Assembly: GCA_947630245.1 (NCBI GenBank)
Contig: CANRGR010000002.1
Location: 1-61,217 of the forward strand
Source: an uncultured Clostridia bacterium
Lineage (GTDB): Bacteria; Bacillota; Clostridia; Christensenellales; Borkfalkiaceae
DNA length: 61,217 nt
Direction of reading: 5' to 3'
Made by a program: the position numbers and the translations under genes. How positions within the stretch are numbered: position 1 is the stretch's first letter; each line of letters opens with the position of its first letter. Positions 2,132-56,532 of this stretch are shown piece after piece. The notes under the pieces are model-generated. The model worked only from the letters and a program-made list of their open reading frames with translations. It was not told the DNA's origin and made no database searches.

Positions 2132-2153
2132 CAAAAGACGGATTTGCTCTTTT

Positions 2154-2262
2154 TTCATCCGGACTATACCGTCGGTGCGGGAATTTCACCCGCTCGGGGG
2201 CATGGACGCCCTTCGCAGACTTTACTGCCGGTGGAGAATTTCACTCCGCCCCAAAGAACCAT
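2154..2262 (-). promoter_or_regulatory. FMN riboswitch (RFN element)
   Basis: The minus strand carries the conserved blocks of the FMN aptamer in order: GGGGCGGAGTGAAATTC, CCACCGGCAGTAAAG, GCGGGTGAAATTCCCGC-like helix and CCGACGGTATAGTCCGGATG. It would lower ribU expression when FMN is bound, through the terminator at 2103-2131. Confidence 0.96.
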
Positions 2263-8384: not shown

Positions 8385-8838
8385 CCTCTGTCATTGCGAA
8401 CGCCGCCGGGACGTTCTCAAATACGTCATGTTGAGCGCAGTCGAAACATCGCCTTATCTCTTGTCACCCCTCGGGGTCCCCGCAAAAAGACGTCGTATTT
8501 TTGCGGGGTGATATAGGGGAACTCCGCCCGTAGGGCGGTGAGGGGTTTGTCATTCCAAGCGTAGCCGAGGAATCTATACCACCTGTCATTCCGAGGGCAC
8601 GAAGTGCCCGAGAGAATCCCCTTATTCAAATCGGACTGCGTATGAGGGATACACTCCTCCCTCGCTTCGCTCGGTCGTCGGTATGACAGAAAACAGACAG
8701 GCATTCCAAAATACGTCATGTTGAGCGCAGTCGAAACATCGCCTTGATTTTAAGACTGTGGCGACTCTTCAACTGCGGCTATGCCTCCGTTCAGAGTGAC
8801 GTAATCAATTCAGCGTGTCGGTATGACAATGTAGTTTC
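8385..8838. repeat. Repeat island 1 (mixed short intergenic repeats)
   Basis: This stretch between hisS and hslU holds no gene. It contains two copies (8420-8455 and 8710-8745) of a repeat built on ATACGTCATGTTGAGC/GTCGAAACATCGCC, copies of a GTCATTCCGAGC...GAGGAATC hairpin repeat (from 8550), a GGGATACACTCC...CGGTATGACA repeat (near 8648), and an 80-bp unit (8468-8550) that recurs at 39303. Each unit is partly self-complementary. Other copies lie in five more islands in this window. Confidence 0.8.
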
Positions 8839-9050
8839 CTTAAATTCCCATGCGCGGAGCAGGGTCTCCCTGCGTCAGCGCACACAATTTGCCGCATACC
8901 TGCGGCTTCTTGTCCGATGAAACGAACAAGAGAACAAGCAAGTTAAGGCGCGCAAGCACGTTTCCTCACGGCGATTTCTTACGACGCGCGCGGCGCGCCG
9001 CTTGCGGAAAGCCGCAAGCAAGCAAGAAATCGCGTGAATATAAAGCAAAT
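8839..9050. repeat. Structured intergenic element, copy 1
   Basis: About 210 bp abutting the hslU stop codon. Helices on the plus strand: an outer GCGC clamp (8852-8855/8878-8881) around GCAGGG/CCCTGC (8859-8864/8868-8873), then ACACAATTT, then GCCGCA/TGCGGC (8891-8896/8901-8906), a conserved single-stranded-looking block with AAACGAAC and AAGTTAAGGCGCG, and a terminal helix GCGATTTCTT/AAGAAATCGC (8971-8980/9024-9033) enclosing CTTGCGG/CCGCAAG. Copies 2 and 3 keep the same helices with different bases. Whether it acts as RNA or DNA, and on which strand, is unknown. Confidence 0.8.
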
Positions 9051-10361
<1,311 letters not shown>

Positions 10362-10419
10362 AGCCTGACCTCCGTCGATGAGAGATATGATGCCCGCCGC
10401 GCGGACAGTTGACCTTGTT

Positions 10420-10718
10420 TTTCTGTCATTCCGAGCGCACAGATGTCATTCCGAGCGCAGCCGAGGAATCTCTACTTATTTTGAGATTTCTCCACTTCGT
10501 TCGCTTCGCTCACTTCGGTCGAAATGACAAAACTGGCGCTTTCTGTCATTCCGACCCCGAAGGGGGAGAGAATCCCCTTGTCTAAAACGGACTGCGTATG
10601 AGGGGATACACTCCTCCCTCACTTCGCTCGGTCGTCGGTATGACAACGGGGGACGAACTTCGTTTGAGGGGATACACTCGCTCCGCGCTACGCGCTCCGC
10701 TCGGTATGACAACGTAAT
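10420..10718. repeat. Repeat island 2 between hslU and hslV
   Basis: A gene-free stretch with several GTCATTCCGAGCGCAGCC/GAGGAATC repeats (from 10426), an AGATTTCTCC...CTTCGGTCGAAATGAC repeat, and two copies of the GGGATACACTC...GGTATGACA unit (near 10602 and 10670). It directly precedes structured element copy 2. Confidence 0.78.
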
Positions 10719-10930
10719 CTTAAAAATCCCATGCGCGTTGGAAAACCACGCTTTTCCATAAGCGCACACAATTTGCGCGACACCTCGCGCTTGATGTCCG
10801 ATAAAACGAACGAGAGGACAAACAAGTTAAGGCGCGGTAGCGCGTTTCCTCGAACGATTCTTTACGAAGCGAGCAAGGCGTAGCCGTAGCAAGCGAGCAA
10901 AGAATCGTTCGAAACCCAAAGTTCGAAACC
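10719..10930. repeat. Structured intergenic element, copy 2
   Basis: It has the same architecture as copy 1 but compensated bases: GCGC clamp (10733-10736/10762-10765) around GGAAAA/TTTTCC (10740-10745/10752-10757), ACACAATTT, GCGCGA/TCGCGC (10775-10780/10785-10790), the shared middle block, and a perfect 13-bp terminal helix CGAACGATTCTTT/AAAGAATCGTTCG (10851-10863/10899-10911). It ends just downstream of the hslV stop codon, as copy 1 does for hslU. Confidence 0.8.
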
Positions 10931-10932
10931 AC

Positions 10933-11466
10933 TCACACTGTTTCGCAAAGGATATGATCGTTCGTATAGACGCAGATCTCCGAAGCGATTTTAAGCGACT
11001 TTCTCGCGATCTCCTCTGCGGAAAAATCGGTATTCTGGACGAGGGCGCGGGCGGCGGCGAGCGCATAATTCCCGCCGCTTCCGATCGCGCAGATCCCCTC
11101 GTCGGGCTCGATCACTTCTCCCGTTCCCGAGAGAATGAGCAAAGTGTCCTTGTCCGCAGTGATCATCATAGCGTCGAGCTTCCTGCCGATCTTATCGCTG
11201 CGCCAGAGATCCGCGAGTTCCACCGCCGAGCGCATGAGATTGCCGGCAAACTTGTTGAGCATGCCCTCGAACCGCTCGGAGAGGGAAAACGCGTCCGTGA
11301 CGCTCCCCGCAAAGCCCAAAATCACCTTTCCGCCGTAGATTCTTCTGACCTTGACCGCGGTATTCTTGAAGATGACGGACTCGCCCATTGTGACCTGTCC
11401 GTCCCCCGCGATCGCCGTGACGCCGTTCCGTTTGACGGCGCAAATTGTCGTTCCTCTGAATTCCAT
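10933..11466 (-). CDS. hslV: ATP-dependent protease peptidase subunit HslV
   Basis: HslV is the N-terminal-threonine peptidase of the HslUV proteasome-like protease. The 177-residue protein starts [11 protein letters not shown]; the family pattern (for example MKFHGTTI in other bacteria) implies removal of a five-residue propeptide to expose Thr6. [23 protein letters not shown] and the [15 protein letters not shown] block are all conserved. The ATG at 11466 is preferred over in-frame starts further up because of this propeptide pattern. It begins 10 bp after the trmFO stop, so it is in the dprA-topA-trmFO operon. Confidence 0.96.
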
Positions 11467-54246: not shown

Positions 54247-55350
54247 TCATTCCCGTTCGACGGAAATCACCGTCTCTTTGGGGAGGCGATCCGCCACCGC
54301 GCGGAGGAGCGCCTCCCGCACTTCGTCGTCCCCGAGGGGACAGGCGTATGGCACGCCGACTTCAAAGACGCACGTCTCCGTTTCGCCGCGGATGAGGCGG
54401 AAGTCGTGCACGTCCAGCCCGGGATAGATCTTCTCCGCCGCCTCCTTGACTTCCCGTTCGAGGCGGAACATCTCCGCGTCATCGAGCGCGACGGGATCGA
54501 GGTGCGCGGTGAGTTCCACGCCCAACCGCGCCTTTGCCTCCCGTTCGACCGAATCGAGCGTCTCATGCGCCTTCACGGAGGAGAGCTTTGCGTCCATTTC
54601 GATGTGTACGGTCGCAAATATGTGGCTCTTGCCATAGGAATAGACGCGCAGATCGTGCAATCCGAGCACCCCTTCCCGTGCGCGCACGAGCGCTTTCACC
54701 GCGGCGACGAGCGCGGGGTCGGGCGCCTTGCCGAGCAGGGACGAGGTCGCCTCTTTGAGCAATTTCACTCCCTGTAAGGCAATGAACAGGGAGAGCAAAA
54801 TCCCCGCGACGCCGTCGGCGGGAAACCCCGTCTTTTGGGTGACAAACGCGCCCGCGGCGGCAACGAGGGTCGCAAGACAGTCGCATGCGCTGTCTAACGA
54901 GGCGGCTTTCAGAGAGTCCGAATCCGCGCGGATCGCCGCACGGCGATAGAGGAAAAATAAAAGGAGCTTTGCCGCCACGGAGACGGCAAGGACAATATAG
55001 ACCCAGAGATCCTGCGCCGCCCGCACGCCGAGGAAAAAACTTTCGACGGAGTCTTTCAGCAGAGTGGCGGAAAGGGCGAGAATGAGACAAGCGATGCAGA
55101 GGGAAGCGATATATTCGGTGCGCTGGTGCCCGTAAGGGTGCTCGCGGTCGGCAGGCTTTCCCGAAAGGCGCAGCGCAACCAACGCCACGGCGCAACTCCC
55201 GCAGTCGGACAGGTTGTTAAAGCCGTCCGCCGAGACCGACAACAGTCCCGTGAGAAATCCCGCCGCGATCTTCGCCCCCGCGAGCAGAAAATTGCACACG
55301 AGTCCGCCCGCCGCAACCGCGACTGCAATCTTTACCGATCCGTTCTCCAT
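54247..55350 (-). CDS. Cation diffusion facilitator (CDF) efflux protein
   Basis: A 367-residue divalent-metal efflux protein. The first half has six membrane segments with a metal-site motif SADGFNNLSDCGSCAVAL (near 40-55) and a second DSACDCLATLV motif (near 152-157); the C-terminal half is a metal-sensing cytoplasmic domain. The metal cannot be assigned from these motifs alone. The gene is followed by its own terminator. A perfect -10 box (TATAAT) ends 6 bp before the ATG, with no Shine-Dalgarno, so the mRNA is probably leaderless. Confidence 0.9.
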   Translation of the reverse strand: MENGSVKIAVAVAAGGLVCNFLLAGAKIAAGFLTGLLSVSADGFNNLSDCGSCAVALVALRLSGKPADREHPYGHQRTEYIASLCIACLILALSATLLKDSVESFFLGVRAAQDLWVYIVLAVSVAAKLLLFFLYRRAAIRADSDSLKAASLDSACDCLATLVAAAGAFVTQKTGFPADGVAGILLSLFIALQGVKLLKEATSSLLGKAPDPALVAAVKALVRAREGVLGLHDLRVYSYGKSHIFATVHIEMDAKLSSVKAHETLDSVEREAKARLGVELTAHLDPVALDDAEMFRLEREVKEAAEKIYPGLDVHDFRLIRGETETCVFEVGVPYACPLGDDEVREALLRAVADRLPKETVISVERE

Positions 55351-55409: not shown

Positions 55410-55673
55410 GCGAGGCAGTTCTTCTCAAATACGTCATGTTGAGCTTGTCGAAACATCGCCTTGATTTTTAAGACTGCGGCGATTCTTCAACTGCGGCTAA
55501 TGCCTCCGTTCAGAATGACGTAATAGAAATGCTTTTTTGTTTACTGTCATTCCGAGCGCAGCCGAGGAATCTATACCACCTGTCATTCCGAGGGCACGAA
55601 GTGCCCGAGAGAATCCCCTCGGTCGTTGTTGGATAAGGGGATACACTCGCTCCGCTCGGTATGACAGTGTAAT
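55410..55673. repeat. Repeat island 5, left part
   Basis: Gene-free. It contains the ATACGTCATGTTGAGC...GTCGAAACATCGCC repeat (55427-55464), a CGGCTAATGCCTCCGTTCAGAATGACG unit, the GTCATTCCGAGCGCAGCC/GAGGAATC and GTCATTCCGAGGGCACGAAGT units (55545-55620), and the GATACACTCGCTCC...GGTATGACAG unit (55640-55668). Confidence 0.78.
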
Positions 55674-55925
55674 TTCTTAAATCCCCATGCGCGAAGCAGG
55701 GTCCCCCTGCGTCAGCGCACACAATTTGCCGCATACCTGCGGCTTATTGTTTGTACAAGGCAGATTGTGGGCGGGCGAACGGAAAAGTTCGACGGTAGCG
55801 CCCGTCGAACGCCACCTCGCTACCAGCTCGGCTGTCGCGCCGCCGTTCACAGCGCACTGCGCTGTTGAACAGAAATGGCGCCGCTCCACCCTCACGAAAT
55901 TTTTCCGCAAGGAAAAATTTGTGAA
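55674..55925. repeat. Structured intergenic element, copy 3
   Basis: Same left half as copy 1: GCGC clamp (55689-55692/55715-55718) with GCAGGG/CCCTGC (55696-55701/55705-55710), ACACAATTT and GCCGCA/TGCGGC (55728-55733/55738-55743). The middle differs and includes its own GTTCGACGG/CCGTCGAAC hairpin (55788-55810). The end again has a strong terminal hairpin, AAATTTTTCC/GGAAAAATTT (55897-55906/55911-55920). It lies between the cation efflux gene and mazF. Confidence 0.72.
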
Positions 55926-56166: not shown

Positions 56167-56532
56167 ATGAACGTCAAACGCGGAGAACTCTACTATGCGG
56201 ACCTCTCCCCCGTCGTGGGGAGCGAACAGGGCGGCGTCCGCCCCGTTCTCGTGGTACAGAACGACACGGGGAACAAGTATTCCCCCACCGTCATCGCCGC
56301 CGCCGTCACGAGCAAGATCCATAAGGCAAGACTTCCCACCCATATCGAACTTCCGCAGGCGTTCGGGCTTGCCAAAGATTCCGTGATCCTGCTCGAACAG
56401 ATCCGTACGATCGACAAGAGACGCCTCATGTCGCGGATCGGCGAGCTTCCCCCCGCGACCATGTCCCGCGTCAACCGCGCGATTCTGATCAGTCTCGGGT
56501 TCGGCGACCGTCTCACGGGAGAACGAAGCTGA
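56167..56532 (+). CDS. mazF: MazF/NdoA-type mRNA interferase toxin
   Basis: The 121-residue protein fits the clostridial MazF family: [60 protein letters not shown], with the conserved arginine and the TS/threonine of the active site. This protein cleaves mRNA in the family. No antitoxin gene (MazE or EndoAI-like) precedes it, although the ~100 bp upstream and the rest of the island contain no plausible coding frame. The ATG at 56167 has AGAAGG before it. It has its own terminator at 56551-56586. Confidence 0.93.

Follow-up and report, generated by a model that had tools for sequence, protein, structure and literature searches.

A dispersed family of mosaic hairpin repeats, mostly behind stop codons, in one genus of uncultured Clostridia

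Three structured intergenic elements in a 61,217-nt stretch of DNA from an uncultured Clostridia bacterium (hereafter the window, meaning the whole stretch that was analysed) are members of a large dispersed family of hairpin repeats, found so far in one genus of uncultured Clostridia. The units lie mostly in one direction, in the 3′ untranslated regions (3′ UTRs) of genes, with a terminal hairpin that begins a few nucleotides past the stop codon. They are best read as a new mosaic repeat of the REP/BIME/BOX kind that would be mobile and that, as RNA, would probably act at the stop codon.

Anatomy and extent of the family

The sense strand of the element is the minus strand of the window. Read in this direction from the stop codon, a unit consists of a terminal hairpin (H3), a middle block, a 6-bp hairpin (H2), the motif AAATTG, a clamp hairpin (H1) and a short tail, which in relatives is often AGTGATTTGG-like. 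The arms of H3 start with TTCAC, TTCGCAC, TTCGAAC or similar, and its loop, inspected by eye, often contains other repeats. At least two forms of the middle block exist, form A (GAGGAAA...CTTAACTT...CGTTTCATCGGACAA) and form B (GAGGGGTTAA...). The copies of the window and the two genes that host them, which we take to be hslU and hslV, are located as follows; scores are those of R1, a covariance model of 92 positions built from 18 copies of the same genome.

8839..9038, minus strand: copy 1, complete element, sense direction, in the 3′ UTR of hslU; R1 111.9 bits at 8878-8969
9024..9038, minus strand: copy 1, H3, 5′ arm, which begins 12 nt past the hslU stop codon
8965..8980, minus strand: copy 1, 3′ arm of H3
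8878..8969, minus strand: copy 1, conserved core under R1 (type A middle block and 6-bp hairpin)
8891..8906, minus strand: copy 1, H2, GCCGCA/TGCGGC, arms 8891-8896 and 8901-8906
8852..8881, minus strand: copy 1, H1, GCGC clamp (8852-8855 and 8878-8881) around GCAGGG/CCCTGC
10719..10914, minus strand: copy 2, complete element, sense direction, in the 3′ UTR of hslV; R1 108.6 bits at 10762-10853
10850..10912, minus strand: copy 2, H3 including its loop, 14-bp perfect arms 10850-10863 and 10899-10912
10775..10790, minus strand: copy 2, H2, GCGCGA/TCGCGC
10733..10765, minus strand: copy 2, H1, GCGC clamp (10733-10736 and 10762-10765) around GGAAAA/TTTTCC
55674..55925, minus strand: copy 3, composite, between divergent ORFs; R1 35.7 bits
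55897-55906 and 55911-55920, minus strand: copy 3, terminal helix
9051..10361, minus strand: hslU, upstream (sense) host gene of copy 1, stop codon at 9051-9053
10933..11463, minus strand: hslV, upstream (sense) host gene of copy 2

The helices named in an earlier, sequence-only reading of the window are present in all three copies, to which that reading ascribed one architecture. This description holds for copies 1 and 2, which are full units, but not for copy 3, a composite in which the clamp and 6-bp helix are identical to those of copy 1, the middle block is of a different, type B-like form, and another repeat is inserted between the terminal helix and the core. Copies 1 and 2 had also been said to abut the stop codons of hslU and hslV; more exactly, the terminal helix begins 12 nt past the stop codon of hslU and 18 nt past that of hslV, where it is preceded by a TTTCGAAC fragment 4 nt past the stop. 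Copy 3 is not at a stop codon; it is flanked by an ORF at 54247-55350 (minus strand) and a divergent one at 56167-56532 (plus strand), the latter presumably resembling a MazF-type endoribonuclease. Compared with 200 dinucleotide shuffles, the minus-strand folds of copies 1, 2 and 3 have z-scores of -5.31 (no shuffle as good), -3.01 (one as good) and -5.53 (none as good), while the plus-strand fold of copy 1 has a z-score of -3.23. The motif CACACAATTTG, allowing at most one mismatch, occurs three times in the window versus 0.42 expected, a count reached by two of 100 shuffles.

The family is much larger than the three copies first counted. A 116-base query matches 29 places in the 1.70-Mb genome from which the window is derived, and R1 has 34 matches in that genome and matches in 71 of the 103 genomes of the genus; the search by covariance model that the sequence-only reading had proposed thus yields further copies in the genome and its relatives, with pairing retained. 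R1-positive genomes have from one to at least 41 matches each (at least 41 in seven genomes), counts that are lower bounds and were obtained with the stricter filters, and the 32 genomes of the genus with no R1 match are not necessarily empty, as G017, G018, G022 and G029 have DNA matches. In an even draw of 297 genomes from the order, the eight with an R1 match all belong to this genus (8/10 of its members, 0/13 in the remainder of the family, 0/274 in the remainder of the order), and the 287 genomes outside the genus have none. A pattern scan of named genomes found at least 116 stretches; among the matches listed, nearly all records are named Clostridia bacterium, and a single record each is named Firmicutes bacterium and Candidatus Borkfalkia faecavium.

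A known Rfam RNA was rejected because no family matches the copies at the gathering cut-off; the sole match in the whole window is an FMN riboswitch at 2143-2262 (minus strand, 107.1 bits), and with E values up to 5 the region 8700-11000 has three weak matches, all off copies 1 and 2. Origin from a phage or plasmid was rejected because copy 1 has no match at E 0.01 among 50,697 phage and 72,556 plasmid records and an exact pattern occurs zero times in viral contigs. Judged by title among the matches listed, no paper on Borkfalkia concerns genome repeats.

The helices occur as alleles that are common to many copies: GCAGGG, GGAAAA, GCAAAA, GCAGAA, GGCGGAA and GAAGAA for H1, and GCCGCA, GCCGTA, GCCGAA, GCGCGA and GGCAAA for H2. 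Typing of 153 out of 202 copies gave 25 combinations of H1 and H2; some copies, such as one of the window's own genome that was assigned to two loci, may enter this count twice, as they may the counts of direction, of wobble in H1 and H3 and of wobble alleles in H2 given below. Reading the change from GCAGGG to GGAAAA as base-by-base compensation between copies is not supported. Because the helix sequences recur as alleles in many combinations, the paired changes are best read instead as swaps of whole modules. Mixing is not free, since three pairs of modules are linked beyond all shuffles (mutual information 0.374 for H2 and H1, 0.198 for the middle block and H1, 0.232 for H3 and H2); the remaining pairs are not (H3 and middle block 0.030, middle block and H2 0.100, H3 and H1 0.198).

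Position and direction relative to genes

Direction was counted for 177 copies, three of them inside a called gene, with gene calls made by a hexamer script. An upstream gene was called for 159 copies and is on the sense strand for 144 of them, on the opposite strand for 15. Between genes of the same direction, 89 copies are sense and nine antisense; 21 copies lie between convergent genes and two between divergent genes. The terminal arm could be located in 88 of the 159 copies, 81 with a sense gene upstream and seven with an opposite-strand gene. H3 starts 0-11 nt past the sense stop codon in 47 of the 81, representing 43 distinct stops, as four were counted double where two tandem copies took the same arm. 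Six of the other starts are at 14-18 nt, six are negative, from an arm or gene called wrongly, and the remaining 22 are farther away, including 10 at 160-220 nt, the distance expected for second tandem copies.

Other repeats served as controls in 400 kb of sequence from relatives G114, G121 and G006. Terminal-arm motifs are within 15 nt of a sense stop codon in 15 of 29 cases, versus none of 49 for a control repeat motif (none of 53 in its other reading direction) and none of 13 for a third repeat motif. The corresponding sense:antisense ratios are 26:3 for the terminal arm, versus 30:19, 32:21 (other reading direction) and 8:5. Replication-strand bias was rejected as the cause of direction: when 102 copies were sorted by the locally coding strand, sense exceeded antisense 43:8 on the major strand and also, in small numbers, 9:1 between gene pairs of the minor strand.

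The hslV-hslU junction allows one site to be compared across relatives. hslV was found in 98 of the 103 genomes of the genus and the junction was read in 50, two of whose contigs end before hslU. Inspected by eye, the junction has one copy in G007, three tandem units in G006, a lone terminal hairpin in G111, a composite in G104 and copies in G000, G123 and G124, while G036 and G066 have antisense copies at hslV. Other junctions are bare (e.g. TAAGGAGG), and in G024, G089 and G118 (loci L290, L294 and L298) the stop codon of hslV and the start codon of hslU overlap as TGATG. Near relatives of G024 and G089 carry long inserts at this junction even though their hslV genes are 96.0% (G024 and G007) and 98.1% (G089 and G104) identical in DNA sequence. 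Therefore, units differ between close relatives at one and the same site.

Pairing, covariation and the strand on which structure is kept

Selection on structure, claimed at the outset, is borne out by strongly conserved pairing. An alignment of 107 relatives has a covariation score of 0.304, versus 0.107 for shuffles (none of 500 reaches the observed score) and at most 0.060 for slid structures, and 89.0% of paired cells are pairs versus 76.9% in shuffles; the alignment, also used for the wobble counts, was fitted to the model and favours it.

Selection for pairing in the sense RNA should make G-U pairs more frequent than A-C pairs, which are G-U on the opposite strand. Stems of 16 tRNAs from the same data served as a control and have a GU:AC ratio of 17:2 in 192 cells. 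The ratio is 51:17 in the S1 helix and 53:6 in the P helix, or 26:6 when one P pair with a freely varying first base, which contributes 27 of the 53, is left out; a further P pair does not form in roughly half of the copies. In H2 the ratio is 62:3, with cells that are not independent, as wobble comes mainly from one allele, GCCGTA/TGCGGC (57 of 58 cells), present in copies of several genomes. A small stem of the middle block (R1 columns 10-21) with a ratio of 125:8 was discounted because slid controls are GU-rich as well. The inner pairs of H1 have a ratio of 5:10 in 1289 cells and H3 one of 39:28 in 2055 cells, a count that includes some alignments visibly not of the terminal hairpin. Lacking the asymmetry, H1 and H3 resemble DNA palindromes rather than selected RNA stems. 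The wobble pattern thus lends moderate support to a sense-strand structure in the core helices and none to such a structure in H1 and H3.

The choice originally offered, an RNA element or a hairpin mobile unit, proves not to be exclusive. Dispersal, tandem copies and module mixing support a mobile unit; the prevailing sense direction and the sense-strand wobble of the middle helices support an RNA.

Known repeats, proposed action and alternatives

The family appears to work most like REP, BIME and BOX repeats, from which it differs by its anchoring at stop codons, its direction and the failure of the Y1 test described below. In the genomes studied, REPs are mostly downstream of coding regions and have GT pairs in their stems (PMC3733652, in excerpt), and composite REP structures are known as BIMEs (PMC2817692, in excerpt). 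Of 4,072 predicted REPs, 446 have a stop codon no more than 15 nt away, and Escherichia coli REPs at this distance are said to stall ribosomes (PMC12306157, in excerpt). The present repeats resemble those of the excerpts in being short, palindromic and intergenic, in lying for the most part downstream of genes and in some cases no more than 15 nt from a stop codon, and in having GT pairs in their stems; in the broad sense of REP/BIME, they are high-copy, palindromic, intergenic, mosaic and mainly downstream of genes. The present units differ in having about 200 nt and at least three hairpins, a prevailing direction and one end at the stop codon. They also differ from GTAG/RAYT-type REPs in that eight of ten high-copy genomes have no Y1 transposase; CGTC REPs apparently have no dedicated transposase either, according to the excerpt of PMC3733652. 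No conserved GTAG or CGTC tag was noticed at the hairpin bases when copies were read by eye, and the likeness to REPs is one of architecture, without a shared tag or transposase found.

The BOX, RUP and SPRITE repeats of Streptococcus pneumoniae are regarded as parasitic; they are structured and limited to few species, their module number varies between strains, BOX is modular, and SPRITE sits near 3′ ends (PMC3049150, in excerpt). The present family shares the modularity of BOX, the structure, the narrow range and, with SPRITE, the position near 3′ ends. Judged by published descriptions, it is set apart from these repeats by a 5′ end that often lies 0-11 nt from a stop codon, and by modules that differ as swapped alleles and not in number alone. 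Like MITEs, the units are non-autonomous, dispersed and hairpin-forming, but terminal inverted repeats and clear target-site duplications, which were looked for by eye at copy ends with one orthologous site compared, were not recognised.

The reading we hold to be reasonably probable is that these are genus-restricted mosaic palindromic repeats, REP/BIME- or BOX-like, which combine selfish spread with an action as RNA close to the stop codon. A unit would string together its hairpin modules (H3, middle block, H2 and H1) and would spread as a selfish non-autonomous element, exchanging modules with other units. It would be transcribed as part of the mRNA of the upstream gene, where the stop-proximal hairpin would most likely slow termination or recycling of ribosomes and shield the 3′ end of the mRNA. 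E. coli REPs that have a stop codon within 15 nt are reported to act in this way. Repeats with a prevailing direction and an anchor at stop codons, measured against controls, open two questions to test: whether palindromes close to a stop codon act in general on terminating ribosomes, and by what means REP-like families spread when no Y1 transposase is resident. For both, the genus is a natural experiment, its 103 species genomes having between 0 and at least 41 model matches each.

A tentative alternative, appreciably less probable, is a purely selfish DNA hairpin element without any useful RNA role, whose machinery recognises single-stranded hairpins and inserts behind stop codons, position and direction being the product of target choice plus tolerance. 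H1 and H3 arms that are mostly Watson-Crick in many different sequences without an excess of GU, tandem copies, close relatives that differ at one site, and the repeats seen by eye within H3 loops are all consistent with such an element, but the sense-strand wobble excess in S1, P and H2 speaks against it. The Y1 tyrosine transposase (PF01797) was found in two of ten high-copy genomes and in three of ten without an R1 match, and reverse transcriptase (PF00078, RVT_1) in one of ten and none of ten, respectively; as neither tracks the element in these 20 genomes, mobilisation by either was rejected, a result that concerns these two enzymes. The reverse transcriptase count likewise rejects a group II intron or other retroelement, while resemblances to group IIC introns and integron attC sites were considered and dropped. 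No clear target-site duplication or terminal inverted repeat was seen by eye either.

It is unlikely, though worth stating, that the family belongs to a class of elements whose insertion is aimed at stop codons in one direction, with module swapping and no known transposase or reverse transcriptase, possibly by means of the Vsr-like DUF559 protein; elements of this class would recognise the 3′ end of a coding sequence, or a terminating transcript, and insert there.

We consider it distinctly improbable that the units are regulatory 3′ UTR RNAs, bound by a protein or small molecule and multiplied under host selection because they are useful. The conserved middle block, covariation far above controls and the prevailing sense direction agree with this explanation. 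On the other hand, 32 of 103 genomes of the genus (at least four of them with DNA matches) and 287 other genomes have no R1 match, positive genomes range from one match to at least 41, one orthologous junction may have zero, one or three copies, and modules are mixed, with at least two forms of the middle block.

Mobilisation in trans by a DUF559 nuclease (PF04480, Vsr-like) carried inside another repeat family is more doubtful still. DUF559 is present in 48 of 71 R1-positive versus 13 of 32 R1-negative genomes (Fisher p 0.016, ignoring relatedness) and in eight of ten high-copy genomes versus three of ten without an R1 match (one weak match in each group). Its ORFs are found within intergenic repeat arrays, some of which begin at the hslV stop codon. 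However, five of 27 genomes with at least 20 R1 matches have no DUF559 match, some genomes counted as element-free have weak DNA matches to the element, and the ORFs are surrounded by a different type of repeat. DUF559 is thus weakly associated with the family as a candidate mobiliser, and neither Y1 nor reverse transcriptase emerged as one. A search of the literature on DUF559 and palindromic repeats gave nothing related, judged by title.

A transcription terminator cassette is highly improbable and was rejected: strong hairpins behind stop codons suit a terminator and TTTTT is within 20 nt of nine of 141 located clamps (TTTTTT in one), but the other 132 clamps have no TTTTT within 20 nt, a consensus scan of 8700-11000 turned up a single terminator-like site, which is on the strand opposite to the sense strand, against a chance expectation of 2.5, and copies sit inside the hslV-hslU gene pair.

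Repeats of other kinds occur beside the family. A second, TGTCATACCGAGCGGAGCG-like repeat adjoins the 3′ side of the element at window positions 10600-10720 and 55560-55680; in the 400 kb of relatives, no instance of its motif comes as close as 15 nt to a sense stop codon. Another, TGAGCGCATATCTGCGTCGCAATACGGCGTC-like repeat starts at the hslV stop codon itself in several genomes (loci L216, L225 and L234 at hslV 3′ ends, and L289 and L302). DUF559 matches occur in 61 of the 103 genomes of the genus. Intergenic arrays of C/G-rich palindromic repeats, some of them starting at the hslV stop, enclose the DUF559 ORFs, which are found at 1437-1827 of L273 (minus strand) and of L282 (plus strand) and at the hslV-hslU loci L215, L219, L222, L228, L230, L234 and L236; these ORFs give the impression of serving a different repeat family as its coding partner.
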